A DNA stretch of 40,186 bases. Source: a virus. The notes beneath the pieces are model-generated. The model was given only the letters and a program-made list of their open reading frames with translations. It ran no database searches and had not been told where the DNA came from. The stretch lies in the IMG/VR virus record IMGVR_UViG_3300030104_003559, positions 1 to 40,186 of that record; one strand, written 5' to 3'. Positions 12,893-32,882 of this stretch are shown here, piece after piece. The number at the start of each line of letters is the position of its first letter. The stretch's first letter is position 1. The position numbers and the translations under genes were made by a program.

Positions 12893-13419
12893 TTATAAGC
12901 TCCTTTTGCTTCTATTTGCCATTCTTTTTTCTTCCTCCGCTTTTATTTCATAAAAAGCAGCAAAATATATTAATTCTTCTTCAGTCATAGACGACCTTAG
13001 AACACTAACTGTTTGACCTAATTCTGTTGCTAGGAAAAATTCAAAATAAAGCCAATTATTCCCCTTTAACTTTTTTTTGCTGTATCCAAATCAATTTGAA
13101 CATCAAACAAAAACAACTCTATTTCGTTCAATACATTCTCAGGTAATTCTCTTTGTAAATTTGGAGCATCGGCAATGGCAAAAGCTTTTTTACCATCTTC
13201 AAGTTCTGCCATTTGACACAACAACTGAGTAGAAACTGTTAGAGCCTCATCTGTCCCCGCAGATGCTTGTGCTCTTTGTCTGTCGTGCCTTGTTAAAGGA
13301 GGAAAATACAAATCAATTATTTTTTCACCATTTCTATTTTTTAGCTCATATTTACGACGACTTGACATTTCATCACTAAAGGCATTAGTGATCAAATCAA
13401 CTGTTCTTTTTGTTGTCAT
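12893..13419 (-). CDS. Tail assembly chaperone GT fusion made by -1 frameshift
   Basis: The long form of the tail assembly chaperone, as in lambda G/GT. The first frame (13419-13066) ends GCA AAA AAA AGT TAA. If the ribosome slips back one base on the run of eight A (13078-13071), it avoids the stop and reads about 60 further codons to TAA at 12893. The new part contains LAT(E)LGQTVSVLRSSMTEEE, then YFAAFYEIKAEEEKR, which is just the kind of sequence found in T extensions (TVGxLRxxMSxxEF..W..). The slippery run matches A AAA AAA in the required phase. In lambda the fusion and the short form together hold the tape measure for tube polymerisation. Confidence 0.85.
13066..13419 (-). CDS. Tail assembly chaperone, short form (G-like)
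   Basis: A 117-residue chaperone located between the tail tube gene and the tape measure gene, the place of lambda G. It has ELKNRNGEKIIDLYFPPLTRHDRQRAQ near residue 26-52 and a helical C-terminal half ending DTAKKS. This frame ends at the slippery run, so most ribosomes would make this short product and a few the fused GT form. The start at 13419 has no Shine-Dalgarno. Instead the sequence AACCAACCCCC lies six bases before it. Confidence 0.85.
   Translation of the reverse strand: MTTKRTVDLITNAFSDEMSSRRKYELKNRNGEKIIDLYFPPLTRHDRQRAQASAGTDEALTVSTQLLCQMAELEDGKKAFAIADAPNLQRELPENVLNEIELFLFDVQIDLDTAKKS
13071..13078 (-). promoter_or_regulatory. Slippery sequence for -1 frameshift
   Basis: Eight consecutive A on the minus strand, read GCA AAA AAA AGT in the zero frame, directly before the stop of the short chaperone. 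A -1 slip changes the reading to AAG TTA AAG GGG and opens the T-like extension. Confidence 0.8.
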
Positions 13420-13446
13420 AGCAAAGGGGGTTGGTTGTTTTTTTTA

Positions 13447-16482: not shown

Positions 16483-17520
16483 TTAGTCAACATTGCTAAC
16501 AACAGTTGCTCTACAAATTCCAATGTTTTTTGTCTCATACACTTTCGACCATGAACCAACAGTTTCCAAAACAGAACGAGATGGATTTACTGTTGATACA
16601 GCGTATTTAAGACCAACTGGGTGATAGATGTAATGGAGATCTACAGCCATTGCTTCTTCTAAAGCAAGGATGTCTCTATCTGTTTGCACTCTTTGAGGTG
16701 CTTGCTCTCCAGTTACAACAGAGCCATTTGCAAAGAAGAAAACAGCATATTCTGTACTTGAACCGCTTCCTGTCGTAGGAATGTCATCAGAAACAATGAC
16801 ATTTAAACCCATGAAGGTAGGAATGCTTGTAGTCCCTGGGAAGGCTCCTGCAGTTGTTCCTGATGTGGCATTAGCATCTGGAGCACCTGTGCTGTCATAA
16901 ACTCTATCAATTGCTCTTCTTTCTACTAAATCGTAAAAAGTTTTTGAGTGCATAGCAACAGAAGTCAATTTAGACCCTTGATCGCCAAGAATACTTTGAG
17001 CTTGTGCTATGTGACGTGGACTTAAAACAGTTGGAGTATCGCTTGATTCTGAATCAATGCAATGAGTGAACAAAGCACTGTTTGAATCATTAGCATTAAG
17101 AGAACCAAAAGCTCCTTGAAGACAAGAATAAAGGTCTTTTTGCTTTTGGTTATTAACGTATGAAGCTAATTTGTTACCTATTGCACGCATAGGATCAGGG
17201 CCGCCACCAACAGCTAATGCTGCCAAATCTCTTGAACTAAAAGCCCGTCCTCTATGGAGAACAACACCAATTTGATTATCAGCAGTGATTTTCCCAGGGG
17301 TTAAAGAAGTACTGTCTGTTAATACTTCAAAATCACCAGTTAAATTAGCTGCATAAAATGGGATTTTCACAAAATCCCCTCCTCTTTCAGAGGATAGATT
17401 TAATTCTGCCAGAGGTTGAACTATTCCACTTTGCAAGAAAGTGTCTGTTCTTGTTGTCTCCTCTATTAAATAGGGAGTAAACAATTCTGGAATAACTAAA
17501 TCTGATCTTTGAGTACTCAT
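16483..17520 (-). CDS. Major capsid protein
   Basis: A 345-residue major capsid protein of the HK97 fold. The N terminus has LVIPELFTPYLIEETTRTD, with an extended part and no large delta domain. Then come SERGGDFVKIPFYAANLTGD (E-loop region), FSSRDLAALAVGGGPDP, HIAQAQSILGDQGSKLTSVAMHSKTFYDL, and LKYAVSTVNPSRSVLETVGS towards the end. A separate scaffold gene lies just upstream and a decoration gene just downstream, the standard head order. No strong ribosome binding site precedes ATG 17520. A GGGGTTGTCCCC hairpin on the minus strand at 17569-17558 lies in the leader. Confidence 0.9.
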   Translation of the reverse strand: MSTQRSDLVIPELFTPYLIEETTRTDTFLQSGIVQPLAELNLSSERGGDFVKIPFYAANLTGDFEVLTDSTSLTPGKITADNQIGVVLHRGRAFSSRDLAALAVGGGPDPMRAIGNKLASYVNNQKQKDLYSCLQGAFGSLNANDSNSALFTHCIDSESSDTPTVLSPRHIAQAQSILGDQGSKLTSVAMHSKTFYDLVERRAIDRVYDSTGAPDANATSGTTAGAFPGTTSIPTFMGLNVIVSDDIPTTGSGSSTEYAVFFFANGSVVTGEQAPQRVQTDRDILALEEAMAVDLHYIYHPVGLKYAVSTVNPSRSVLETVGSWSKVYETKNIGICRATVVSNVD

Positions 17521-17597
17521 TAGTGAATACGAAAAAAAACTGATTTATTTACAAGACGGGGACAACCCCTCTCTCAGACAACCGAGATAATTACATA

Positions 17598-18272
17598 TTA
17601 ACCTTTTGCTGCGTTTTTCAACATTTCATATTTATTTCTATCTGTCTTATACAAAGTATGTTGTTCAGTTAAATTAAAATCTTTTTTTGTAAATGGGTTC
17701 TTTTCTCCTACATCTAAAAATTCAGTTGTAGAGTTTTTTGATGTTGAAGCACCTCCACCTTGAGGTCTTGAATGTTTTTGAACCCACCCTGGCATCTCAC
17801 GCATAGCCCAATCCTTTACAGGTGTTCGCGTATATCCATCAACAACAACAACTGTCCCATCTGGCTCTCTGGACAACTGATCTTTATTTAAACGATTTAA
17901 AACATATTGAGGATCATGCACAACATCAGATAAAGCCGTAACAGCAGGAGCTTCAATTTCAAGCCTTCTCTTTTCGTTTCTAAGACTTTCAATTTCCTTG
18001 TTTTTTTCTTCTTCTGCTTGTCTGTATTGACTAGCAAGTTTTTCTCTTGCCTCTTCGTACTTTCCTTGAGCCTCTAATTCTTCTTGCTCTTTTTTTTGCT
18101 TATATGCGATTAATTCATCAACATTTACACCTTCTGGAACCTGTTTGGCTTTTTGTGTTACCTTGATTTTTTCATCTAAAAGTTTTGCATTATTAGCTTT
18201 TAAAGCTTCTATTTCTGCTCTTAAAGCATCTTCATTGTTTGGTGGGTTTGGTCTTTGTAAATCTTCAGACAT
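17598..18272 (-). CDS. Scaffolding protein
   Basis: A 224-residue protein before the capsid gene with a long coiled coil (about residues 18-105, rich in E, K and Q, including ELEAQGKYEEAREKLASQYR) and a C-terminal basic, partly disordered tail with KNAAKG. This is the normal layout of a siphovirus head scaffold that guides capsid assembly and leaves afterwards. A middle part VHDPQYVLNRLN and VVVDGYTRTPVKDWA is typical of scaffolds of this group. AACCCC stands 12 bases before the start in place of a Shine-Dalgarno. Confidence 0.85.
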   Translation of the reverse strand: MSEDLQRPNPPNNEDALRAEIEALKANNAKLLDEKIKVTQKAKQVPEGVNVDELIAYKQKKEQEELEAQGKYEEAREKLASQYRQAEEEKNKEIESLRNEKRRLEIEAPAVTALSDVVHDPQYVLNRLNKDQLSREPDGTVVVVDGYTRTPVKDWAMREMPGWVQKHSRPQGGGASTSKNSTTEFLDVGEKNPFTKKDFNLTEQHTLYKTDRNKYEMLKNAAKG

Positions 18273-18310
18273 AAATAATTTTTTGGGGTTATGACAATAA
18301 TACTAATTTT

Positions 18311-18589
18311 TCACCATTTGGTCTTGTTCGCCCAATAAGCAGCACTCATTTTTCCTTTTGCAATATTCTTTGCATGTCTAGCTTTAAATGATTTTTGTCT
18401 AGCCTTATCAGCCTTGCTTGTTGGATTATCACCAGCACCCCTAATCCCTTGTTGACCGAATCTGATCAACTTAACTTTGTCTCCTTCCTTTGCTAAAACA
18501 ACATGGCTTTTTGTTGGATGATTTGGTGTCCTTTTGGGTTTATTAAATCCATCTAAGTTATTTTTTTTTAGTCTTGAATCTTTACTCAT
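18311..18589 (-). CDS. Conserved small basic phage protein (92 residues)
   Basis: A strongly basic 92-residue protein containing HPTKSHVVLAKEGDKVKLIR, FGQQGIRGAGDNP and the C-terminal ARHAKNIAKGKMSAAYWANK. I remember closely similar proteins from many marine phages, as a conserved domain of unknown function. No catalytic residues are evident. It is encoded in a run of small basic proteins between the head-morphogenesis gene and the scaffold, with ATG/TGA overlaps to its neighbour upstream. DNA binding or packaging inside the capsid is possible. Confidence 0.7.
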   Translation of the reverse strand: MSKDSRLKKNNLDGFNKPKRTPNHPTKSHVVLAKEGDKVKLIRFGQQGIRGAGDNPTSKADKARQKSFKARHAKNIAKGKMSAAYWANKTKW

Positions 18590-18750
18590 TTACCTTTTTT
18601 TTTCATTGCTAGTCTATGTGCTTCTGTGAAAGTTTTACCAGCCAGCATAGATTTAGTCATTTCATCCATGTGGGCTTTTGTATGACCATGTTCTTTTTTA
18701 TGCCTTTTTAAAGCATTTTTCTGTCTAATTGTTAGCTCTTTTTTCTTCAT
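18586..18750 (-). CDS. Small basic protein (54 residues)
   Basis: A 54-residue frame overlapping both neighbours by four bases (ATGA at 18750 with the upstream stop, ATGA at its own end with the next start). The product is basic and histidine-rich: MKKKELTIRQKNALKRHKKE, then HGHTKAHMDEMTKSML and EAHRLAMKKKGK. The double ATGA coupling makes it a convincing gene although short. I know the type 'KALKRHxxHHxxxHMxxM' from small phage proteins without assigned function. Confidence 0.7.
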   Translation of the reverse strand: MKKKELTIRQKNALKRHKKEHGHTKAHMDEMTKSMLAGKTFTEAHRLAMKKKGK

Positions 18751-19028
18751 TTTTTCTTGGTGTTTTTTTTGCGTTTATGTTGATAGTTTATTTTTTTACT
18801 GCTTTTTTTCTCTCTTTTAAATTTTGCTTTTTCTGCTGGTGTCATCTCTCCAACAGTTTTTGGTGTTTTGCTACTCACTCTTTTTTTAGGTCTACACGCT
18901 GGATATCCATCTCTTTTTTCTCCTTTTTGACGACCGCAAGGTTTCCCAGTTTTTACATCAACCCACTCTTCTGAGAACCAACGACCTAAGCCACCTCTAC
19001 CCTTGGTTTTACTTTTTCTTTGTGGCAC
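18747..19028 (-). CDS. DUF5872-like conserved small protein
   Basis: A 93-residue, very basic protein with GRGGLGRWFSEEWVDVKTGK, PCGRQKGEKRDGYPACRP and RVSSKTPKTVGEMTPAEKAK. This matches my memory of the DUF5872 family found in marine phages and algal viruses. Two cysteines (C41-type PCG and ACRP) could bind metal, but no standard zinc motif is complete. The start is GTG 19028, overlapping the end of the gene upstream by 20 bases. Function unknown; it belongs to the small-basic-protein cluster. Confidence 0.75.
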   Translation of the reverse strand: MPQRKSKTKGRGGLGRWFSEEWVDVKTGKPCGRQKGEKRDGYPACRPKKRVSSKTPKTVGEMTPAEKAKFKREKKSSKKINYQHKRKKNTKKK

Positions 19029-19185
19029 GTTTTTTCTCCTTTCCTACACGATAAGTACCGCCACGGCTTTTATACTCCCTAACTAACCACGCATTTGCAT
19101 ACGCAGAAGGATAAACAGCAAATTTTCTTTTCGCAGCAGCTTTTACTCTTGCATAAAGAGTTTTATCAACAGGTATGTTTGCCAC
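19009..19185 (-). CDS. Conserved small basic protein (58 residues), GTG start
   Basis: A 58-residue frame missed by a 60-residue cut-off. It begins GTG at 19185, preceded by AGGGGGG at a proper distance (5 bases), and ends TAA at 19009 inside the next gene. The product contains TLYARVKAAAKRKFAVYPSA and NAWLVREYKSRGGTYR. Proteins with 'YxxVKxxAKxKFxVxPSAYANAWLVxxYKxRGG' are widespread in marine phages, so this is a real gene. Function unknown; the pattern is compatible with nucleic-acid binding. Confidence 0.75.
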   Translation of the reverse strand: MANIPVDKTLYARVKAAAKRKFAVYPSAYANAWLVREYKSRGGTYRVGKEKKRATKKK

Positions 19186-19240
19186 GCTTACCCCCCTTTT
19201 TTTTCTTTTTTCCTTTGGGTTTCATCGCTCCGTAAGCCAT
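19166..19240 (-). CDS. Possible tiny lysine-rich protein (24 residues)
   Basis: An ATG at 19240 opens a 24-codon frame (MAYGAMKPKGKKKKKGGKRG, then four more) that overlaps the start of the following gene. Tiny proteins beginning MAYG.. and rich in lysine occur next to these small basic genes in other phages. However, the DNA is a low-complexity A/G run, so chance is possible. Confidence 0.35.
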   Translation of the reverse strand: MAYGAMKPKGKKKKKGGKRGKHTC

Positions 19241-19313
19241 AAAAAGAAAAAAACAACTAATAGAATTTTACCAAGATTATTTTTTTTTGTCTTTTTTTTT
19301 CTTTTTTACTATC

Positions 19314-19511
19314 TTAATCTCCAAAATATTTATCAATTAAATCTAAATCCTGTTTATTTTCTGCTGAAGCATATAAAACTTCAACCAACTCACCTATTAA
19401 GCTTTTGTTTTCTCCTTTAGCTTTATTAATTAAAGACAACAACTTCTCTGGTGCTTCCCTTGACTTTGGAAAGCTACCAGCAACTTTTAAAGCTTGTTCT
19501 TTTAAGTCCAT
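19314..19511 (-). CDS. Small acidic-helical unknown protein (65 residues)
   Basis: A 65-residue helical protein (MDLKEQALKVAGSFPKSREA ... LDLIDKYFGD) whose start overlaps the last 10 bases of the head-morphogenesis gene, showing translational coupling. I do not recognise a family. It could be a small head-assembly partner of the upstream protein. About 75 bases of A/T-rich low-complexity DNA follow before the next small frame. Confidence 0.55.
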   Translation of the reverse strand: MDLKEQALKVAGSFPKSREAPEKLLSLINKAKGENKSLIGELVEVLYASAENKQDLDLIDKYFGD

Positions 19512-21772
19512 TTATCTACTTTTTTTAAAGAAGCGTCAAGAGTGTCTTCTATCCATTTATAGGCAGAAGGAGAAGCTTTCTTCAATTCTACAGGTGAGAA
19601 GATGAACTGCACAAATGTTTCTGCAAATCTTTCTTTGTAATTCAAACTTCCATAGGCACTTGGAATCCAATCATAAGAACTTAATTTATTCACTTCATTG
19701 GTGTAATGAATTTGATGACCCATCTCGTGAACATAAGTTTTCAACCAGCTAGTCCCTTCGTCAAACCTACCTTTCCCATGAGCTGACCAATAATTATTCC
19801 GATCCCAATTAGGGTTGTTTTGATTGTTTTTTGCATATTTAACAGCATCTTTTATATCGTCTTGCATTTTTTTCAAGTTTTTAATAGCTTTTTGTTTGCT
19901 TGTTGCCTTAAGAACAATATGATTTGCTCCTTTTATAGTCATTCCATTCATATATTTTCGACCTTTGCCACCTGCTGTAAAATATCTTTTTGCTTCATAA
20001 GATACAAATCGAAAATCATTAGTTTTTAGAGCAGCATCCATGTCTCTATAAACATCTGAAAATCCATAAGTTGTTTCGTTTTTCAAAGAAGTTTGTATTG
20101 TTTTTTTAAATTGTGGGTTATCAAGAAAATATTCATATTTTTGTTTGCTTGAACGAAGATTTCCTTCTTTTGCATTTGACCAATTACAGAATACTTGTTT
20201 TTTCTCTGCAAATTTTCTAAGTTTTCTCGCATTTTCTCCTGCTAATCCTTCCATTTGATCCATTAAATCAAAAGCTTTATTCACTTCATTAGCTTTTACT
20301 TTTCCAGTCGGAGAAATACCCTGCAATTGTGCAATGGTGGGCAAAGATGGATCTCTTTCCTCTAACGCCTTTAATTGTGCTTTAGCTTCTTGTAATTGTT
20401 TTTTCGTTTCCGCTATTTCTTTATCAATTTTCTTTATTGCTGGTGAAGGCTTTACAGGAGGTGTAGTTACTTTTGGAGCTGCTGCTGTTACTTTTGCTTT
20501 TATATCACTTGGTTTACCATACTTTCTCTTTAAATCTTCTAGCGTCATTTCACTTCCATCACTTCTAATGACCTGCCTTAAAGCATCTTTGCCATTACTC
20601 TTTGCTGCTAACCGATTAAAATATTTTGCCTTTTCAAATCCTAAAGTTTGTATTTGAATTTCACCTGGCTCATATTTTTTTAACTTGTTATTTGCTCCCC
20701 TTGCTCTTTGTTCATACAACCAATCTCCATAAGAAACTTTTTGAGGCACTCGACCAGTTTCACTTGGTCTAGTTGTTAGTTTTGTTTCTTTAGGTGGTGT
20801 TAGTCCTAGCTTTTTATAATCAACAACAGGGACAGTGGTAGACCTGCAATTAAAATGTTGAGGTGGTGTTGGCCCCTTGTCGTATCCGAATTTTTGACCG
20901 TCTAATCTCTGACAAATTGAGCTGGTCTTACTGTCTAAAGTTGCTACATATTCATATTCAGGAGCAACATCTTTGTTTGCAGCGTAGACACTTTGACTTG
21001 CAGCATTGCTTACTTGATTGATTGATGTTCTAACAATTGTTTTTATCTGATTGTTTGCAAGTTTTAATGGTTGATTTCCTGCTAAAGCAAACGCCCTTGT
21101 ACCTTCTTTTGCATATTCATTAAAATTCAACCTTCCCATTAATCGCCTTGCAATTTGTACGTTTGTTTCACCAGATAAAACCCCTTGCCTTATATGTCTA
21201 GCCAATGACTCTTGTTGTCTTGCCGCTATACCTCGAAAAGCTTTTTCAACAGTCTCTCCATTAGGAAGTGTTAATAATTCACCTCTTTTTGTTGTAAGAG
21301 CAAAATCACCAGCTTTAAATTTTTTAAATTCTTCTTCTGGTCGTCCAAACAAGTTCAATTTTGTAGGGTCTGTACTTACGACAGCATCACCAAAATCTTT
21401 ACTTACAGCAACGCTGTTAATAGGAATATCACCAGAAGCTACAACTTTTTTTAATTCTTCTTCTATAAATTCAGTTTGTAATACTGCAAGACCTTGTAAC
21501 TCTTTTTTAAATGCTTTTGCAGATGTTCCAGACCAAGAATTGAGACTATCTTTTGATTGTTTTATAATTGCTCTTAGCCTTTTTCTTGTCTCTGGAGCAA
21601 CCAATGTTGTTGTTTTTTGTTGTCTAAAATCAATATCAATTAATCTTTTTGAAGCCGCAATAATTATGTCGTTATAAGCTCTTGCATATTTACCAGCAAC
21701 TGAGTTGCTATAACGATTTAAATCAATTACTTCACGATAAAACGCCTCGGAAACAGCAGTTTTTGTTGTCAT
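19502..21772 (-). CDS. Head morphogenesis protein fused to a zincin-type peptidase domain
   Basis: A 756-residue fusion. Residues about 170-315 form the SPP1 gp7/Mu F-type minor head domain (GVLSGETNVQIARRL at 197-211, RTSINQVSNAAS at 248-259, the signature TSSICQRLDGQKF with C287, and PPQHFNCRST with H306 and C309). A basic linker with coiled coil follows (about 425-475). The C-terminal 200 residues end in a metallopeptidase-like site: HEMGH at 682-686, and E718 in ERFAETF as likely third zinc ligand. Minor head proteins of this type sit at the portal vertex. The extra domain may cleave a head protein or be injected. Start ATG 21772 overlaps the portal stop by four bases. Confidence 0.85.
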   Translation of the reverse strand: MTTKTAVSEAFYREVIDLNRYSNSVAGKYARAYNDIIIAASKRLIDIDFRQQKTTTLVAPETRKRLRAIIKQSKDSLNSWSGTSAKAFKKELQGLAVLQTEFIEEELKKVVASGDIPINSVAVSKDFGDAVVSTDPTKLNLFGRPEEEFKKFKAGDFALTTKRGELLTLPNGETVEKAFRGIAARQQESLARHIRQGVLSGETNVQIARRLMGRLNFNEYAKEGTRAFALAGNQPLKLANNQIKTIVRTSINQVSNAASQSVYAANKDVAPEYEYVATLDSKTSSICQRLDGQKFGYDKGPTPPQHFNCRSTTVPVVDYKKLGLTPPKETKLTTRPSETGRVPQKVSYGDWLYEQRARGANNKLKKYEPGEIQIQTLGFEKAKYFNRLAAKSNGKDALRQVIRSDGSEMTLEDLKRKYGKPSDIKAKVTAAAPKVTTPPVKPSPAIKKIDKEIAETKKQLQEAKAQLKALEERDPSLPTIAQLQGISPTGKVKANEVNKAFDLMDQMEGLAGENARKLRKFAEKKQVFCNWSNAKEGNLRSSKQKYEYFLDNPQFKKTIQTSLKNETTYGFSDVYRDMDAALKTNDFRFVSYEAKRYFTAGGKGRKYMNGMTIKGANHIVLKATSKQKAIKNLKKMQDDIKDAVKYAKNNQNNPNWDRNNYWSAHGKGRFDEGTSWLKTYVHEMGHQIHYTNEVNKLSSYDWIPSAYGSLNYKERFAETFVQFIFSPVELKKASPSAYKWIEDTLDASLKKVDKWT

Positions 21773-27355: not shown

Positions 27356-27532
27356 TTATCTAGTTAGCTGAGATTCGTAAGCGTCAAGCTGTTTTTTAGT
27401 CATTGCATGACGGATTATAGTTCTAATAAAACCAGCTCTAGAAAGTTCAGGAGGTTTATTTTCGTCTAACCATTTAATTTGTTCTTTAGTTAGCTGAGTG
27501 TTGATTGTCTTCAGTTCGATGTCTAAGTCCAC
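27356..27532 (-). CDS. Ribbon-helix-helix-type regulator (58 residues), GTG start
   Basis: A 58-residue frame from GTG 27532 to TAA 27356, too short for a 60-residue cut-off. An in-frame stop four codons upstream makes this GTG the only sensible start. It reads VDLDIELKTINTQLTKEQIK, then WLDENKPPELSRAGFIRTII. This fits a ribbon-helix-helix fold: one beta strand, helix A (TKEQIKWLDE), a turn and helix B (SRAGFIRTIIRHAM). It diverges from the helicase gene across 55 bases and precedes the primase gene by 4 bases, so it is placed to control both. ACAACCCCA stands directly before its GTG. Confidence 0.7.
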   Translation of the reverse strand: MDLDIELKTINTQLTKEQIKWLDENKPPELSRAGFIRTIIRHAMTKKQLDAYESQLTR

Positions 27533-27537
27533 TGGGG

Positions 27538-27565
27538 TTGTTTATGTAGCAGATAGGGGTAAGAT
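27538..27565 (+). promoter_or_regulatory. Probable promoter of the helicase gene in the divergent control region
   Basis: TTGTTT at 27538-27543 and TAAGAT at 27560-27565, 16 bases apart, with the expected transcript start near 27572. The transcript would start just before ATCCAACCCC. On the other strand a weaker pair (TTGGAT/TATCTG) could serve the RHH gene, so the two promoters would overlap. Confidence 0.4.
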
Positions 27566-27587
27566 ACCGCCAAATCCAACCCCGTCA

Positions 27588-28868
27588 ATGATCAAATTAA
27601 GAGACTATCAAAAAGAGGCAGCCGATAAGTTGTATTGGTTACTCGCACGAAAACAGTTTGCTTATCTTTCTGGTGAGGTAAGGACAGGAAAAACTTTAAC
27701 TGCTTTAAGCTTGATTGAACGATTAGGCATTCAACGGTGTTTACTGGTTACAAAGAAAAAAGCAATTGCAAGCATTGAGAAAGATGCAAAAGCTTTAGGT
27801 ATTCAAGATCGAATAATAATAATTAATTATGAACGGCTACCAAAATTCGCATGGACATTTTGGCAGTTATTAATTGTTGATGAGGCCCATTGTATAGGAG
27901 CATACCCAAAGCCTTCGGGAAGATGGAAGAACTTGAGAAAGATGAGTTATGAAAAGGTTTTAATGATGTCTGGTACACCATCACCAGAGTCATTTTCACA
28001 ATTATTTCATCAGTACACTTTGCACCGTCCTGTCTGGGCACAGTATAAAAATTTTTACGAGTGGGCTAAAAAATATGTATCGATAAATAAACAATATGTA
28101 GGCACTGGTCAAACCGTTAACGACTACTCGAATGCAAATGAAAAGTTAATAATGCAAGATATTAAGCCGTTTGTAGTTCAAATGACTCAAGAAGATGCAG
28201 GGTTTGAGACAAAGATTGATGAAGCTGTCCGATATGTAGAAATGAACGAAACAACTTACCAATTAGCTCAAGATATTATTGACGATGGAATATCTACTAT
28301 TGAAGGTCAAACAATCCTAGCTGATACGGGAGCAAAAAAACTAAGCAAATTAAAGCAGCTTTATTGTGGAACAGTCATTGGAGAAAGAAGCGGTAAAGGA
28401 ATTATTTTTGATCGATCAAAAGCTGAATACATCAAACAACGATATGGCAAACATAAAATTGCAATTATGTATTGCTATGAAGCAGAACGAAAAATGCTTT
28501 ATGAAGCATTTCCTAATGCAACGGACAGTCCAGAAGAATTTAATGCAAACAAGGATGCAGTTTTTATTGGGCAGGTAAGAGCCAGCCGTGAAGGAGTGAA
28601 TTTAAGTACTGCAACGTATCTTGTTTTTTTGGGAGTAGATTTTGCAGCACTCTCTTACCTCCAGGCTAAAGAAAGACTTTCCTTCCTCGGACGTGACACG
28701 CCGCCTAGAATTAGGTATGTATTTGCGGCCAATGGAATTGAAACTCGAATTTACTCCACAGTCCGAAAAAAAGAAAATTTTACAATCAGTCATTACAACA
28801 AAGTCCGAGGCGAATTATCAAGCCAAGCTGGTCAAAAACTTCGAGAGAGAAGGATGGGAAGTAATTAA
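27588..28868 (+). CDS. DEAH-box (SNF2-like) DNA helicase
   Basis: A 426-residue superfamily 2 helicase. The start at ATG 27588 gives MIKLRDYQKEAADKL, the usual first motif (Q-type RDYQ). An upstream frame from 27498 would run through the promoter. Motifs: Walker A GEVRTGKT at 29-36, DEAH at 98-101, SGTPSPESF (motif III), and a C-terminal domain with GQVRASREGVNLS and LSYLQAKERLSFLGR (motifs V and VI). It resembles SNF2-type helicases of phages, used in replication or recombination. It is the first gene of the plus-strand early region and overlaps the VRR-NUC gene. CCAACCCC lies four bases before its start. Confidence 0.88.
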   Translation: MIKLRDYQKEAADKLYWLLARKQFAYLSGEVRTGKTLTALSLIERLGIQRCLLVTKKKAIASIEKDAKALGIQDRIIIINYERLPKFAWTFWQLLIVDEAHCIGAYPKPSGRWKNLRKMSYEKVLMMSGTPSPESFSQLFHQYTLHRPVWAQYKNFYEWAKKYVSINKQYVGTGQTVNDYSNANEKLIMQDIKPFVVQMTQEDAGFETKIDEAVRYVEMNETTYQLAQDIIDDGISTIEGQTILADTGAKKLSKLKQLYCGTVIGERSGKGIIFDRSKAEYIKQRYGKHKIAIMYCYEAERKMLYEAFPNATDSPEEFNANKDAVFIGQVRASREGVNLSTATYLVFLGVDFAALSYLQAKERLSFLGRDTPPRIRYVFAANGIETRIYSTVRKKENFTISHYNKVRGELSSQAGQKLRERRMGSN

Positions 28869-29043
28869 ACTTTTAAAGACAAATAAAAATGGTTATCCTG
28901 ATCTGCTATTGCTTAAACCGAATGAAGTGCGATTTGTTGAAGTAAAGGCACTAAAAGGTCGATTAAGTAAGATTCAGGAATATCGAATAAAAGATCTACG
29001 CTCTAAAGGCTTTCCCGTCGAAGTTGCCAGATCGCCTGATTAA
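28732..29043 (+). CDS. VRR-NUC-type nuclease
   Basis: A small nuclease of the VRR-NUC family. The domain is SEANYQAKLVKNFEREGWEV, then GYPDLLLL with the metal-binding aspartate and FVEVKALKGRLSKIQEYRI, giving the D...ExK pattern. The start is uncertain. ATG 28732 leaves 29 extra residues that are read from helicase coding DNA in another frame. A start near 28792 (ATT, giving TTKSEANYQ) would fit the family better but is a rare codon. Such nucleases often accompany phage SNF2-like helicases, and here the two genes overlap. Confidence 0.8.
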   Translation: MELKLEFTPQSEKKKILQSVITTKSEANYQAKLVKNFEREGWEVIKLLKTNKNGYPDLLLLKPNEVRFVEVKALKGRLSKIQEYRIKDLRSKGFPVEVARSPD

Positions 29044-29056
29044 GTTAATATTTTGA

Positions 29057-29096
29057 TACATGGGTAAGGCAAAAGTCCCCATCACCCTCCCATGTA
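29057..29096. repeat. Inverted repeat TACATGGG...CCCATGTA
   Basis: A perfect 8-bp inverted repeat (29057-29064 and 29089-29096) separated by 24 bases. It lies between the VRR-NUC gene and the terminator at 29108. A short 16-codon frame (ATG 29060 to TAA 29110) runs through it, which could be chance. It could be an RNA stem or an operator. Confidence 0.4.
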
Positions 29097-29107
29097 CTAG
29101 AGAAAAG

Positions 29108-29132
29108 TAAGGGCGGTTAGTAGCTGCCCTTA
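29108..29132. terminator. Terminator hairpin between converging genes
   Basis: TAAGGGC (29108-29114) and GCCCTTA (29126-29132) form a 7-bp stem with an 11-base loop. ATTTAAT follows on the plus strand and CTTTTCTC on the minus strand. It lies where the plus helicase/nuclease operon meets the minus frame at 29130-29309, so it may work both ways. Confidence 0.6.
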
Positions 29133-29309
29133 TTTAATGCTCGAAATTATTCTATCTACTAGAAGGGTTTTCTTCATGTGGGTTTGAGTATCTGCTAACG
29201 GTTGTAACTGTCTATTTGAGAGTTGCATGAGTCCAGCCCTAAAACCTTGAAGACCTACGGGACTGCGGTAAACGAATGGAGCACCAAAGAAATTAAGCAA
29301 ATGTTTCAT
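29130..29309 (-). CDS. Possible small protein (59 residues)
   Basis: A minus frame from ATG 29309 to TAA 29130, coding MKHLLNFFGAPFVYRSPVGL, then QGFRAGLMQLSNRQLQPLAD and a basic-hydrophobic end. Its stop lies in the terminator hairpin and its start faces a promoter region shared with the gene at 29370, which is a sensible layout. I know no family, and there is no clear ribosome binding site. A longer start at 29363 would run through the opposite promoter and is less likely. Confidence 0.45.
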   Translation of the reverse strand: MKHLLNFFGAPFVYRSPVGLQGFRAGLMQLSNRQLQPLADTQTHMKKTLLVDRIISSIK

Positions 29310-29321
29310 TTTAACAATAGA

Positions 29322-29343
29322 GGTGTACAGACGTGTATATAAT
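29322..29343 (+). promoter_or_regulatory. Promoter with tandem GGTGT-N5-CGTGT element
   Basis: GGTGT (29322-29326), five bases, CGTGT (29332-29336), then TATATAAT (29336-29343). The same arrangement precedes the gene at 30251. The transcript would begin near 29350, and CACCAACCCC (29352-29361) would be at its very 5' end. Confidence 0.55.
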
Positions 29344-29369
29344 AAAGAGGTCACCAACCCCATTTTGAT

Positions 29370-29528
29370 ATGACATCATCAGCCGTCAAGAAACGCAAAA
29401 GACCTTTATATAAAGATCTTGATGCGACAAACCAAGGATTAAGCCGCAGGGTAAAAAACTTGGAGGATGCAGTTACGTTTTTATTTGTAGTTGCTGGAGT
29501 TTCAACCGCAACAGCTTTTATTTTTTAA
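29370..29528 (+). CDS. Small membrane protein (52 residues)
   Basis: A 52-residue frame from ATG 29370 to TAA 29528. It has a basic N terminus (MTSSAVKKRKRPLYKD), a short helix (LSRRVKNLEDAV) and a hydrophobic C terminus (TFLFVVAGVSTATAFIF) that would be a tail anchor in the inner membrane. It has its own promoter (29322-29343) and its own strong terminator (29534-29559), so it forms a single-gene transcript. I do not recognise it. A holin-like or host-takeover role is possible but unproven. Confidence 0.6.
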   Translation: MTSSAVKKRKRPLYKDLDATNQGLSRRVKNLEDAVTFLFVVAGVSTATAFIF

Positions 29529-29533
29529 CCACC

Positions 29534-29559
29534 GCCCCGCTAGTCGGGGCTTTTTTTTT
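29534..29559 (+). terminator. Strong intrinsic terminator touching the next start codon
   Basis: GCCCCG (29534-29539), loop CTAGT, CGGGGC (29545-29550), then nine T (29551-29559). The ATG of the methyltransferase-like gene begins at 29560, directly after the T run. Confidence 0.85.
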
Positions 29560-30186
29560 ATGAAAATTCTTATTGCCTGTGAATATTCGGGTCAGATCCG
29601 AAACAGTTTTGCGTCATTACCTTTCGGGCATGATGTTATTAGCTGTGATCTTTTACCAACTGAACAAGAAGGTAAACACTACCAAGGAGATGTTAGAGAT
29701 ATTTTATACAGTCAGAAATGGGATTTAATGGTGGCCCATCCGAGCTGTCAGCATATAGCTGTATCAGGTGCTGCCCATTTTTGGCGAAAGGAAAAAGAAC
29801 AAAAAGAAGCTCTTGATTTTGTACGTTTACTTATGAACGCTCCCATTGCTCGGTGGGCTATTGAAAATCCAATTAGCGTTATCAGTTCAAGGATTAGACC
29901 GCCCGATCAAATTATCCAACCATACGAATATGGTGATAGTTTTCAGAAATCAACTTGTTTGTGGTTAAAAAATTTACCAAAACTGAGGCCAACAAAAATT
30001 GTTGATAGGGGTGAATTTTACGTTTCGCCTAAAGGTAAGAAGATGCCAGCTTGGACAGCAAAACTAGGAAAAGGAAAAGGAAAGGAAAGAAGTAAAACAT
30101 TTCCTGGAATTGCAAAGGCTATTGGAGAACAATGGGGAGATGAGTCAAGATTGCCTGAGATAGTTGAGCAACTAGGACTCTTCTGA
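29560..30186 (+). CDS. DNA cytosine-methyltransferase-like protein
   Basis: A 208-residue protein with the start of a Rossmann methyltransferase (MKILIACEYSGQIRNSF), a loop SCDLLPTEQEGKHYQGDVRD, then MVAHPSCQHIAVSG and RWAIENPISVISS. The PSCQ and ENP patterns match motif IV (PC) and motif VI (ENV) of C5-cytosine methyltransferases. The protein is short, as are many phage members of this type. No restriction partner is encoded nearby, so it would act alone, perhaps masking sites from host enzymes. Start ATG 29560 is chosen because it gives the family start. It lies directly on the terminator T run with no ribosome binding site, so expression probably depends on read-through. Confidence 0.75.
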   Translation: MKILIACEYSGQIRNSFASLPFGHDVISCDLLPTEQEGKHYQGDVRDILYSQKWDLMVAHPSCQHIAVSGAAHFWRKEKEQKEALDFVRLLMNAPIARWAIENPISVISSRIRPPDQIIQPYEYGDSFQKSTCLWLKNLPKLRPTKIVDRGEFYVSPKGKKMPAWTAKLGKGKGKERSKTFPGIAKAIGEQWGDESRLPEIVEQLGLF

Positions 30187-30199
30187 GCTGTACAGACTA

Positions 30200-30227
30200 T
30201 TGACACAGGTGTTCCGAGGTGTATAAT
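30200..30227 (+). promoter_or_regulatory. Strong sigma70-type promoter with tandem GGTGT element
   Basis: TTGACA (30200-30205), 16 bases, TATAAT (30222-30227), a near-perfect consensus. GGTGT occurs in the spacer at 30208-30212 and again at 30218-30222, ten bases apart. It drives the gene at 30251. The transcript would begin near 30234, with a leader of about 17 bases that ends in AACCAACCCC directly before the ATG. Confidence 0.8.
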
Positions 30228-30250
30228 TAAATGTATAAGCAACCAACCCC

Positions 30251-30517
30251 ATGACTGCTAAAACAAAAACTAATTTCATTTTTGAAATTGATCACCCTGA
30301 TACAGTTGCTCCAAGAGCTATTCAAACAAGTGTTGTAGGGGAAAAAGGTTTATTAGATATCAAAGCTTTAGATATCAACGAGATCTCACCTTTTAAAACA
30401 AGGTATGTTTTTCAAATCAAGCACCCAAGAGATATAACACCACAAGAAATTGAGCAAAAGATGGAAGGCCGTCAAGGCTGTATTTCTTTGAAAATTCTTG
30501 ACATTATTCCTCAATAA
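30251..30517 (+). CDS. Unknown early protein (88 residues)
   Basis: An 88-residue protein with an internal duplication: IFEIDHPDTVAPRAIQ near residue 10 and VFQIKHPRDITPQEIEQK near residue 53, each followed by about 15 residues ending in a KALDI or KILDI stretch. It thus seems to be two copies of a 43-residue beta-alpha-beta unit. I know no family. It is the first gene behind the strongest promoter in the window, so it is probably an abundant early product. AACCAACCCC touches its ATG, and no Shine-Dalgarno is present. Confidence 0.7.
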   Translation: MTAKTKTNFIFEIDHPDTVAPRAIQTSVVGEKGLLDIKALDINEISPFKTRYVFQIKHPRDITPQEIEQKMEGRQGCISLKILDIIPQ

Positions 30518-30520
30518 ATT

Positions 30521-30652
30521 ATGAAGCTTTTTACTTTCGGTATTATTGCCAGCCTTGTTTATTTCAACGCAACCAGTGGAGCATTGACAAAGATGACCCA
30601 AACAGATTGCAACGCTGGCATCCAAGAAGCGTGTGATCAATTACAAAAATAA
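30521..30652 (+). CDS. Small secreted or membrane peptide (43 residues)
   Basis: A 43-residue frame four bases after the previous stop, with a hydrophobic signal-like start (MKLFTFGIIASLVYFNA) and a short polar part with two cysteines (TDCNAGIQEACDQLQK). A disulphide between them would make sense in the periplasm. It is too short for a 60-residue cut-off, but its spacing suits the operon. Function unknown. Confidence 0.55.
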   Translation: MKLFTFGIIASLVYFNATSGALTKMTQTDCNAGIQEACDQLQK

Positions 30653-30658
30653 GGAGTC

Positions 30659-30687
30659 AGGCGGCAACCAACCCCTGATAGCCGCCT
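30659..30687 (+). promoter_or_regulatory. Hairpin with AACCAACCCC in its loop
   Basis: AGGCGGC (30659-30665) pairs with GCCGCCT (30681-30687) as a 7-bp perfect GC-rich stem; the 15-base loop begins AACCAACCCC. No U run follows, so it is not a simple terminator. The loop carries the same motif that stands before several start codons in this genome. The next gene starts 30 bases after the stem. Confidence 0.55.
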
Positions 30688-30717
30688 AACATCCATAAAC
30701 AATCTATCTATTTTCTG

Positions 30718-30909
30718 ATGAATTCCAAAGAAGTCTTTAATACCTTTACTACTGTTATTGAGAGTCCTGACAGCACTCCTTTCTTTAGGCAGTTAGCGAA
30801 AGCAGCTTTAATAGCAACGCCTGATGACAAGGCTTTGATCATGCGAAATTGGCCAAAGTTTGTACAAAACTACGGTCCAGGTTCTTCTTTATATAAAGAG
30901 GCAGCATGA
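30718..30909 (+). CDS. Unknown small protein (63 residues)
   Basis: A 63-residue helical protein (MNSKEVFNTFTTVIESPDST, then FFRQLAKAALIATPDDKALI and RNWPKFVQNYGPGSS). It overlaps the RecE-like nuclease gene by four bases (ATGA), so the two are translated together. I know no family. A role as partner of the nuclease/annealing pair is possible from its place alone. The start has no Shine-Dalgarno. Confidence 0.6.
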   Translation: MNSKEVFNTFTTVIESPDSTPFFRQLAKAALIATPDDKALIMRNWPKFVQNYGPGSSLYKEAA

Positions 30910-31706
30910 CACAAGGCAGCGTACAAATCTCTAATGCTGAATATCACAAGCACTTTGCAGTATCAGCATCAATGATCAAAGTCATGGATAAACATGGCCC
31001 TAGAGCTTATTGGAATAGTTTTTTAAATCCTGAACGTCCTGAGAAAAAATCAACTCCAGCTCTTGTGCTTGGTTCTTTAACACATGCGGCAATTCTTGAA
31101 CCTGACGACTTAGAAAATCAATTTACGGTTGTTTCTAGCCGTACAACAAAAAAAGGTAAGGAGGAAGCAGCAGAGGCCGAGGCTAAAGGTATTACTCCTG
31201 TTACAGGCGATCAATGGGAATTAGCAATGGCAATGTGTGAGTCTGTTTATAGAGAAAAAAAAGCAACGGATTTATTAGCAACAGGAGTAGCAGAGAAATC
31301 ATGGTGGAGCGTTGACGACTTAACAGGTCTTGACGTAAAAGCCAGAAGCGATTGGTTTACTACTGGAAATACAATTGTTGACCTGAAAACAAGCCGCTCT
31401 GGTGCAGCACCAAAAGAATTTGCAAAAGCAGTTGCTAATTTTGGCTATCACATACAGGCGGCTCATTATTTAGAAGTTACGGGTGCAAAAAGATTTATTT
31501 TTTTAGTTGTTCAATCTGAATGGCCTTTTGACGTTGGTTTGTATGAATTAGATCAACAGAGCATTGATCTTGGATATAGACAACGGCGAAAAGCATTAGA
31601 TCTTATTTCAGAATGTCAGATTTCAGATCACTGGCCGAGCCATAGTGAAGCTGGAGTCCAAAGCCTAACTCTTCCACGTTGGGCCTTTCCATCAACCCCT
31701 AATTAA
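30906..31706 (+). CDS. RecE/YqaJ-like PD-(D/E)xK exonuclease
   Basis: A 266-residue nuclease of the RecE-like type (DUF3799-like). The N-terminal part has VSASMIKVMDKHGPRAYWNS and LGSLTHAAILEPDDLE, typical of this family. The catalytic core contains GLDVKARSDW (D149 at its centre), IVDLKTS (D159, K161) and YHIQAAHY (Q184, Y188). Such enzymes chew back one strand of duplex DNA to make 3' tails for the annealing protein. The Rad52-type gene follows directly (2 bases), the usual pairing. It also overlaps the 63-residue gene before it. Confidence 0.85.
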   Translation: MTQGSVQISNAEYHKHFAVSASMIKVMDKHGPRAYWNSFLNPERPEKKSTPALVLGSLTHAAILEPDDLENQFTVVSSRTTKKGKEEAAEAEAKGITPVTGDQWELAMAMCESVYREKKATDLLATGVAEKSWWSVDDLTGLDVKARSDWFTTGNTIVDLKTSRSGAAPKEFAKAVANFGYHIQAAHYLEVTGAKRFIFLVVQSEWPFDVGLYELDQQSIDLGYRQRRKALDLISECQISDHWPSHSEAGVQSLTLPRWAFPSTPN

Positions 31707-31708
31707 AG

Positions 31709-32353
31709 ATGACTTTTTCAGACAATCAAGTTCAACTTTTAAATGAACCTATCAACAAGAACAATGTTCAAGAGCGTTGGGCCGATAAGGAAAAGACGTT
31801 TAAGCTTTCTTATATTGAAGGTTGGCACGTTATAAAAGAAGCAAACAGAATTTTTGGCTTTGACGGTTGGAATAGTGAAACCGTAGATTTAAAAATCGTT
31901 TATGAAGATCAAAAAGTTGTTTCTTATATAGCTAAAGTAAGAATCACAGTGGGTAACATTGTTAGAGAAGGAACAGGAGCAGGGCATGGCCGCATGGGAG
32001 GTGTTAGTGATAAGCATGAATCAGCCGTGAAGGAAGCTGAAACAGACGCAAGGAAGCGGGCGTTTATGCAATTTGGAGATCAGTTTGGTCTGTCTTTATA
32101 TGACAAGCATCAAGCATGGGCTAAAGAACCATCAACCGCGAAAGTAAAACCTGCTATTAAGACAGAACCACCAAAAAGAGACGACGGTGAAGTTTTAGCA
32201 AAACAATTTATAGCTTTTGTAAAAAAGAACCCAAGCAAAGAAAAATTAAAAGTATTAAAGACAAATTTAAGTAGTCGTTTTGCTGCTGGAGATATTACTG
32301 AAAACCAAAGAAATGAAGTTATTAAAGCAATTTTAGAGGTAGAAGATAAATGA
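31709..32353 (+). CDS. Rad52/Rad22-type single-strand annealing protein
   Basis: A 214-residue annealing protein. The Rad52-like core contains SYIEGWHVIKEANRIFGFDG (residues about 33-52), then VSYIAKVRITVGNIVREGTG, HESAVKEAETDARKRAFMQF and GDQFGLSLY. The C-terminal 70 residues are charged and probably flexible, as in phage Rad52 proteins. It would coat 3' tails made by the RecE-like nuclease and anneal them. CAACCCC, inside the end of the nuclease gene, stands nine bases before its ATG. It overlaps the small HTH gene by four bases. Confidence 0.87.
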   Translation: MTFSDNQVQLLNEPINKNNVQERWADKEKTFKLSYIEGWHVIKEANRIFGFDGWNSETVDLKIVYEDQKVVSYIAKVRITVGNIVREGTGAGHGRMGGVSDKHESAVKEAETDARKRAFMQFGDQFGLSLYDKHQAWAKEPSTAKVKPAIKTEPPKRDDGEVLAKQFIAFVKKNPSKEKLKVLKTNLSSRFAAGDITENQRNEVIKAILEVEDK

Positions 32354-32574
32354 CCGATTATCTAAGACCAAAAGATTTAGCAATTAGATACAACATATCG
32401 TTATTTACATTGCAACAATGGAGAAAAAAAACCAGAAAAGGTGAGGCTACTGGGCCTCCGTTTGAGGACATCGGTTTGACACCTTTGAAACCATACGCCC
32501 CACGCATCAGATATAAACTTACTGATGTCATCGAGTGGGAAACAAAAAACAACATCCAACCCCGTGGTAATTAA
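32350..32574 (+). CDS. Small helix-turn-helix protein (excisionase/MerR-like)
   Basis: A 74-residue protein with a winged-helix pattern: YLRPKDLAIRYNISLFTLQQ, then WRKKTRKGEATGPPF, RIRYKLTDVIEWETKN. The layout 'P.dlA..ynis..tl..WR...G..PpF...G..irY...dvieWe' is that of AlpA/excisionase-like DNA-binding proteins. With no integrase present it is more likely a transcription regulator than a recombination factor. It overlaps the Rad52-type gene (ATGA) at its start. Confidence 0.75.
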   Translation: MTDYLRPKDLAIRYNISLFTLQQWRKKTRKGEATGPPFEDIGLTPLKPYAPRIRYKLTDVIEWETKNNIQPRGN

Positions 32575-32576
32575 TT

Positions 32577-32882
32577 ATGGACTCAGCTTTCACAGCAAAA
32601 TTTAAATTTTTCATAAATAAAAAAAGAAAATCAGGAAAAGATCCTGATAGATATTTAATTATTGATTGGACACCAGAAGAAGCACGAAAAGCATCAAAAT
32701 GGTTAATTGATCAAGCGGATGCAGCAGAGATGCCTGGCGGTTCAACAATTCGTAAATACAGCTCTAAGACTGATTATGAAGAAGTTCCAGGTTTTGCAAT
32801 GTGGGGTACTCAATTTTCAGTCAATTCGGATTCTGAAGAAGAGTGGGAAGATGGCCGAGGAACAATTTCACCTAGAGCCTAA
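32577..32882 (+). CDS. Unknown early protein (101 residues)
   Basis: A 101-residue protein, basic at first (FKFFINKKRKSGKDPDRYLI), with IDWTPEEARKASKWLIDQAD, and acidic at the end (SDSEEEWEDGRG). An acidic C-terminal tail and a lysine-rich start are seen in ssDNA-binding and DNA-repair proteins, but I know no clear family. It is the last gene of the early plus operon, directly before the double terminator. CCAACCCC is 13 bases before the ATG. Confidence 0.6.
   Translation: MDSAFTAKFKFFINKKRKSGKDPDRYLIIDWTPEEARKASKWLIDQADAAEMPGGSTIRKYSSKTDYEEVPGFAMWGTQFSVNSDSEEEWEDGRGTISPRA

Follow-up and report, generated by a model that had tools for sequence, protein, structure and literature searches.

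How are the start codons of phage genes selected when a Shine-Dalgarno (SD) sequence is missing? This question is raised by a stretch of viral DNA of 40,186 nucleotides (IMG/VR record IMGVR_UViG_3300030104_003559, positions 1 to 40,186), here referred to as the window, in which the heptamer CAACCCC recurs immediately in front of such start codons. A first-pass annotation of the window had listed these copies and had proposed a leader element that acts on translation or RNA stability or that serves a phage regulator. Based on the comparison of the window with related phages and host genomes, we favour with slightly better than even confidence the reading of CAACCCC as an mRNA element that is associated with start codons at the translation initiation region and is read by a putative phage factor.

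CAACCCC before start codons of the window

The window contains 12 copies of CAACCCC, whereas 2.86 copies are expected and none of 100 shuffled sequences reached this number. The heptamer is present in the 24-nt leaders of seven of the 52 plausible genes, with gaps of 0-13 bases to the start (Table 1), and represents the commonest 7-mer among these leaders. Dinucleotide shuffling of the whole genome yielded a mean of 0.0175 genes with a leader copy (maximum 1 in 400 shuffles) and shuffling of each leader a mean of 0.26 (maximum 2); the enrichment over shuffled genomes by which the earlier proposal was to be checked is thus present. With automatic gene calls, which are mechanical for all contigs, CAACCCC reached p = 4e-8, whereas the lowest value for a 7-mer across 78 comparison contigs was 6e-7; these contigs provide the better yardstick because the p-values of the de novo motif scans carry no correction for the number of k-mers. 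All copies named in the first-pass annotation were located, including the weaker one before the scaffold gene and the one in a hairpin loop. The gaps given there are correct for the starts at 27532, 27588, 29370, 30251, 31709 and 32577, and that for 13419 is to be corrected from 6 to 7 bases.

Table 1. Copies of the motif and associated features in the window.
Feature	Position	Strand	Remark
CAACCCC	27534-27540	-	1 base before GTG start of small RHH-like gene 27356-27532
CAACCCC	27577-27583	+	4 bases before helicase start 27588
CAACCCC	29355-29361	+	8 bases before 52-aa open reading frame (ORF) 29370
CAACCCC	30244-30250	+	abuts ATG of 88-aa ORF 30251 (gap 0)
CAACCCC	31693-31699	+	9 bases before Rad52-like recombinase start 31709; overlaps exonuclease gene end
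CAACCCC	32557-32563	+	13 bases before 101-aa ORF 32577; overlaps HTH gene end
CAACCCC	13427-13433	-	7 bases before tail-region gene 13066-13419
AACCCC	18285-18290	-	12 bases before scaffold start 18272; weak candidate
Hairpin GGCGGC-AACCAACCCCTGATA-GCCGCC	30660-30686	+	stem arms 30660-30665/30681-30686; CAACCCC 30669-30675 in apical loop; fold z = -3.1
RHH-like 58-aa protein	27356-27532	-	short N-terminal strand-like region and two helices; candidate regulator only

The structural genes of the window point leftward and the early block at 27588-32882 points rightward, the latter comprising genes for a helicase, a methyltransferase, an exonuclease, a Rad52-like recombinase, a small HTH protein and several small proteins. 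Six of the seven start-associated copies as well as the loop copy belong to the early region. The remaining exact copies at 11841 (+), 17563 (+), 23128 (-) and 35708 (-) are not associated with starts and look like background, in the case of 17563 because the copy forms an arm of a GGGG-ACAA-CCCC inverted repeat. This repeat is located between the scaffold and major head protein genes, is conserved (window 17563 (+), L022 969, L023 1152 and L087 9959), and might act as a terminator or as a hairpin in the leader of the head protein gene.

An SD sequence was called present at a duplex energy of -3.5 or below. By this definition none of the seven CAACCCC genes possesses an SD sequence, compared with 22 of the 45 other genes (rank test p = 0.006), and the earlier remark that the motif starts lack a good SD sequence, which other genes have, holds. 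The motif occurs in one orientation and mostly 4-11 nt before the ATG, with a mode of 8 nt and a second group at 0. Start-associated copies of CAACCC[CT] are predicted to be unpaired to a degree of 0.56, compared with 0.43 for other copies (p = 0.016).

The motif had also been placed near the 5' ends of transcripts predicted from early promoters. Promoter prediction agrees with this for part of the copies: a TTGACA-16-TATAAT promoter is predicted at 30200-30227 ahead of ORF 30251, and a -10-like box can be seen some 9-14 nt upstream in the case of the RHH-like gene, the helicase, ORF 29370 and ORFs 30251/30521. CAACCCC might on these grounds be part of the sequence transcribed first from early promoters, with an effect on promoter escape or mRNA stability. 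We regard this explanation as improbable, since the copies that precede 31709 and 32577, like their homologues, are internal to an operon, where they overlap the coding sequence in front of them and no -10 box is recognizable by eye, and the loop copy is likewise internal.

Conservation in relatives and the hairpin-loop copy

A search for the motif in related phages, as the first-pass annotation had suggested, detected exact CAACCCC in 20 IMG/VR contigs that encode helicases 81-89% identical to that of the window, where it precedes both homologous and non-homologous genes. Unrelated genes preceded by the motif in the same slot are found in L001 (12544), L007 (4377), L008 (9009) and L013 (4219), and in relatives the promoter and motif of the 30251 type abut a 43-aa ORF instead of the 88-aa ORF. 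Among 13 distinct leaders of ORF 29370, the motif columns are 100% conserved, compared with 79% in the 20 columns upstream, and CAACCCC is invariant across 15 distinct leaders of the RHH-like gene. The helicase copy is retained in L004, L005 and L009 although the start of the downstream gene differs, and appears as the variant CAATCCC in L015. A sister clade with primases about 80% identical (L301, L302 and L366-L369) also carries the motif, the RHH-like gene and an SSB gene being preceded by CAACCCT, and CAACCCC before the Rad52-like recombinase is kept in both clades. Farther relatives (primase 55% or less, exonuclease 36% or less, helicase of L021 42%) showed no such motif set.

That cassettes of promoter and motif are common to relatives while the gene behind them changes would also be expected if CAACCCC had no function and marked a boundary of gene shuffling, or if leaders of shared ancestry had been copied together with their cassettes. 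This explanation appears highly improbable: a stretch of seven bases is insufficient for homologous recombination, the motif columns are fully conserved amid variable flanks, the sister clade keeps the loop motif described below while the stem changes, and other lineages possess an enriched motif of their own.

Additional start-associated sequences were noticed among the relatives. Besides CAACCCC, L015 contains CTAACCC[CT] at five further genes, which are arranged in tandem at 17260-20055 (145-394 aa) with the motif 10-11 bases before each ATG, and several of which share similar N-termini (MTTSTKKSLNYMQK..., MNNYWSLRIANEFIEKSL...). In L002 (12027) and L018 (1860) a conserved CAACCCC is located just behind a possible ATG (ATGGCAGCAACCCC) and near a TATAAA box; this copy may be part of the coding sequence and is the only early one not upstream of its start. 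In the sister-clade genome G009 (L366, L382 and L383), AATACCT is the top start-associated 7-mer (5 of 11 sites) besides CAACCCC, and may be a second motif or due to chance.

The hairpin with the loop copy of CAACCCC is located between the stop codon of the 43-aa ORF and the 63-aa ORF 30718, with the motif 42 nt before the latter. The stem is GGCGG/CCGCC in L010, and the sister clade contains the hairpin CCGAGG..AGCG-ACCAACCCCTGAA-CGCT..CCTCGG, the stem of which is unrelated in sequence to that of the window whereas the loop is the same. CAACCCCTG remains in the apical loop across the hairpins of the window, L010 and the sister clade. The fold z-scores are -2.8 in L011, -5.6 in L302 and -1.4 in L010, and L007, L008, L012 and L018 show a stem mismatch and another predicted fold. 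No known RNA family was detected in the window at E <= 1. A changed stem around a constant loop motif is expected of an RNA element and hard to explain by a DNA site.

This observation bears on the main rival explanation, in which CAACCCC is a DNA operator: short asymmetric sites bound by a phage repressor would stop transcription in the manner of the stoperators of cluster A mycobacteriophages, DNA sites for the immunity repressor (PMC6550527, PMC9283540), with a lineage specificity of the immunity type. Like stoperators, the motifs are asymmetric, intergenic and in a single orientation to transcription, and each genome has its own motif that is similar among relatives (PMC6550527); moreover, the highly conserved RHH-like gene carries the motif in its own leader. 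In contrast to stoperators, the motif replaces the SD sequence and keeps an SD-like spacing, which together with the hairpin copy points to RNA. Seven bases are also short for an operator, as CAACCCC occurs 71 times in a 1.7 Mb host genome, the scanned proteins include none recognized as an immunity repressor, and the distribution of the RHH-like gene does not follow that of the motif system. We therefore judge an operator function to be unlikely, albeit a serious competitor.

Start-associated motifs of other cyanosiphoviruses and their hosts

The major head protein of the window (16483-17520) shares 83% identity with those of the Prochlorococcus siphoviruses MED4-117, MED4-184 and P-HS2 and 63-66% with those of the Synechococcus phages KBS-S-2A and S-H1. 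The window is therefore a picocyanobacterial siphovirus, the host of which is probably Prochlorococcus; the hosts of the other contigs were likewise inferred from the head protein. A scan of the genome contigs for the portal protein gave no match.

Other cyanophages were scanned de novo for k-mers located 0-16 nt before starts. The top 6-mer of MED4-117 is TCTCGC, with six of ten sites associated with starts (p = 4e-8), and it is also the top 6-mer of MED4-184 (5 of 9 sites, p = 1e-6). The motif precedes both genes of a divergently oriented early pair, a methylase gene, a small ORF and the gene homologous to the tail gene 13419. In related metagenomic contigs, TCTCGC again ranks first among the non-SD 6-mers in eight cases and CTCGCA in one further case. 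In L449, CTCGCAA precedes four starts (1129, 945, 7349 and 9468), two of which correspond to TCTCGC sites of the MED4-117 lineage, and is an intermediate motif variant. In S-H1, CCACCC is present before nine of the 64 annotated genes, compared with 0.26 expected (p = 1.4e-11), and S-CBS1 has ACCACCC before three genes. One of the 78 comparison contigs, L493, is itself a relative of S-H1 with CCACCAC before seven starts, so that the comparison is conservative. CTTCGCA in G008 and AACCCGC in G007 were found at three starts each; CTTCGC and ACCCGC are provisional as lineage motifs because comparison contigs reach similar p-values. The lack of an SD sequence recurs with the other motifs, as none of four motif genes in MED4-117 (24 of 59 others) and none of nine CCACCC genes in S-H1 (27 of 55 others) possesses one.

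The tail gene 13419 allows a comparison at one homologous position. CAACCCC is present in 16 of 50 homologous leaders, and in others roughly this position is taken by CTAACCCC, ACCCGCA, CTTCGCA or TCTCGCA. A table of genomes against motifs is near-diagonal for the phages of the Prochlorococcus type. Related cyanosiphoviruses have different start-associated motifs, often at homologous genes, a feature that is new; in the open-licence literature searched, cyanophages were not described as having a motif of this kind. The recurrence of CAACCCC is real as first noticed, and the heptamer is one of a set.

Since the same or closely related hosts are infected by phages with motifs of different complements, a single host RNA is unlikely to read all of them. 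The concerted switching of motifs suggests a phage factor that co-evolves with them and speaks against pairing with ribosomal RNA or any other host RNA that is fixed. In the parts of two host genomes examined, 380 kb of Prochlorococcus MIT 9201 and 400 kb of a Synechococcaceae genome, no association of the motifs with starts was seen, by which CAACCCC was rejected as a general host leader element. Pairing with the host 16S rRNA or its anti-SD was also discarded: duplex energies are near or above 0 for most motif leaders, and the part of the host 16S rRNA that was read contains no GGGGUUG and ends with a normal CACCUCCU. The Prochlorococcus small RNAs Yfr1 and Yfr2 were dismissed as partners, since no motif complementary to CAACCCC was found for them in the literature searched and motif switching speaks against a host small RNA. 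A fixed host component, be it 16S rRNA, a small RNA or an RNA-binding protein, with host leaders being mimicked by the phage, could account for the position of the motif at the initiation region, and GGGGUUG of the host 23S rRNA could pair with it in principle; given the observations listed here, this alternative is very improbable.

Proposed mechanism, candidate partners and known systems

In the mechanism that we favour, the element would be located 0-16 nt (most often 7-9 nt) before the AUG of phage genes without an SD sequence, with one copy displayed in a loop, and would be bound by a sequence-specific factor that is most likely encoded by the phage. This factor would set the translation of mostly early genes, for replication and recombination, together as one translational regulon, and element and factor would co-evolve, giving each lineage its own motif (CAACCC[CT], TCTCGC, CCACCC and, provisionally, CTTCGC and ACCCGC). 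That the ligand is RNA, that the phage factor exists and that translation is the controlled step we infer from the observations described above. A site that replaces the SD sequence would suit an activator, and a site at which the factor competes with the ribosome a repressor like RegA; we lean slightly towards activation or ribosome recruitment, because the motif takes an SD-like position and the SD sequence is missing. A more far-reaching version, rather doubtful at present, is a private, lineage-specific start code, in which a phage RNA-binding factor recruits ribosomes to the motif genes in place of the SD sequence and motif and factor switch together throughout the genome. The first-pass proposal of a leader element or regulator target is partly supported, as it agrees with enrichment, exact conservation, absence of SD sequences and the loop copy with its changed stem; a position at the 5' end is not essential, and translation, RNA stability and DNA regulation are not fully separable by sequence.

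Several findings weigh against the favoured mechanism. The motif of the helicase leader is lost in L301 and L302, so some homologous leaders lack it. The difference in accessibility is modest and is absent for TCTCGC, for which there are few sites. CTTCGC in G008 and ACCCGC in G007 fall within the upper range of the comparison contigs, and G013 and P-SSP7 show no comparable motif, as does KBS-S-2A. No RHH-like homologue was found in MED4-117, G007 or G008. Finally, stoperators show a similar drift of the motif from genome to genome.

The RHH-like protein is the most conserved early protein, being 100% identical in about ten relatives with helicases and primases 83-94% identical; for the helicase alone, the identity in many of the relatives that share the protein is 83-89%. 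Its structural model has a pLDDT of 84, and a weak similarity to ParD-type RHH proteins was detected (E > 0.5). The lack of a detected homologue in the three lineages just named implies that it is not a general partner, and it was rejected as a universal one. In some members of the sister clade (L366-L369), a canonical SSB occupies the slot of the 101-aa protein (32577-32882, +; phrog_37725), the MED4-117 homologue of which (L102 23220-23540) ends with DDLPF, a type of tail that is typical of SSB. The protein probably belongs to an SSB family so far unrecognized; its structural model is of low confidence (pLDDT 38). By analogy to T4 gp32, which represses its own mRNA, a possible partner is an SSB that would repress its mRNA together with neighbouring ones. 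The families used in the scan yielded no RegA homologue in the early region.

Among the known systems, CsrA/RsmA proteins recognize a short motif beside start codons and in hairpin loops. The presence of CAACCCC at both types of location may be likened to CsrA/RsmA operators and sponge RNAs, although CsrA reads GGA and the motif described here is C-rich. The GGA motif of RsmA has been mentioned, with no RsmA homologue identifiable in cyanobacteria (PMC2662882). The operators of T4 RegA, gp32 and gp43 resemble the cyanophage sites in being located around the AUG of numerous early mRNAs, most of them for replication (PMC3014915), the phage factor being putative here. The gp43 operator hairpin lies about 40 nt upstream of the start, a distance comparable to that of the loop copy from ORF 30718; RegA sites, unlike the exact C-rich motif, are A+U rich and have no clear shared sequence (PMC3014915).

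The first-pass annotation had stated that no such element was known, which does not hold. The start-associated sequence (SAS) of cluster K mycobacteriophages (PMC3203893) is the nearest known kind of element, which would work alike without sharing any sequence with the cyanophage motifs. SAS is a 13-bp sequence (GGGATAGGAGCCC) that contains the SD core AGGAG, and extended SAS (ESAS) has 17-bp imperfect inverted repeats upstream (PMC3203893); its function was proposed to be translational and was still unverified in 2025 (PMC3203893, PMC12699233). Both elements are short asymmetric repeats in one orientation a few bases before start codons, mainly of non-structural genes of different families, as illustrated by the swapped genes of L001, L007, L008 and L013, and both are absent or rare in the host; the abundance of SAS differs by subcluster. 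In contrast to SAS, CAACCCC does not match GGGATAGGAGCCC and has neither an SD core nor complementarity to CACCUCCU, and the cyanophage motifs are C-rich sequences of 6-8 nt that occur in genes without an SD sequence, switch between lineages and include a hairpin-loop copy.

In marine picocyanobacteria and their phages, an SD sequence is missing from many genes, and the choice of their mRNAs for translation is poorly understood. A motif that replaces the SD sequence and changes in concert between lineages represents a natural experiment for finding its reader. As the GenBank isolates MED4-117, MED4-184/P-HS2 and S-H1 carry versions of it, the motif is testable in culture, and it would provide an independent parallel to the puzzle of the cluster K SAS, which has been open since 2011.

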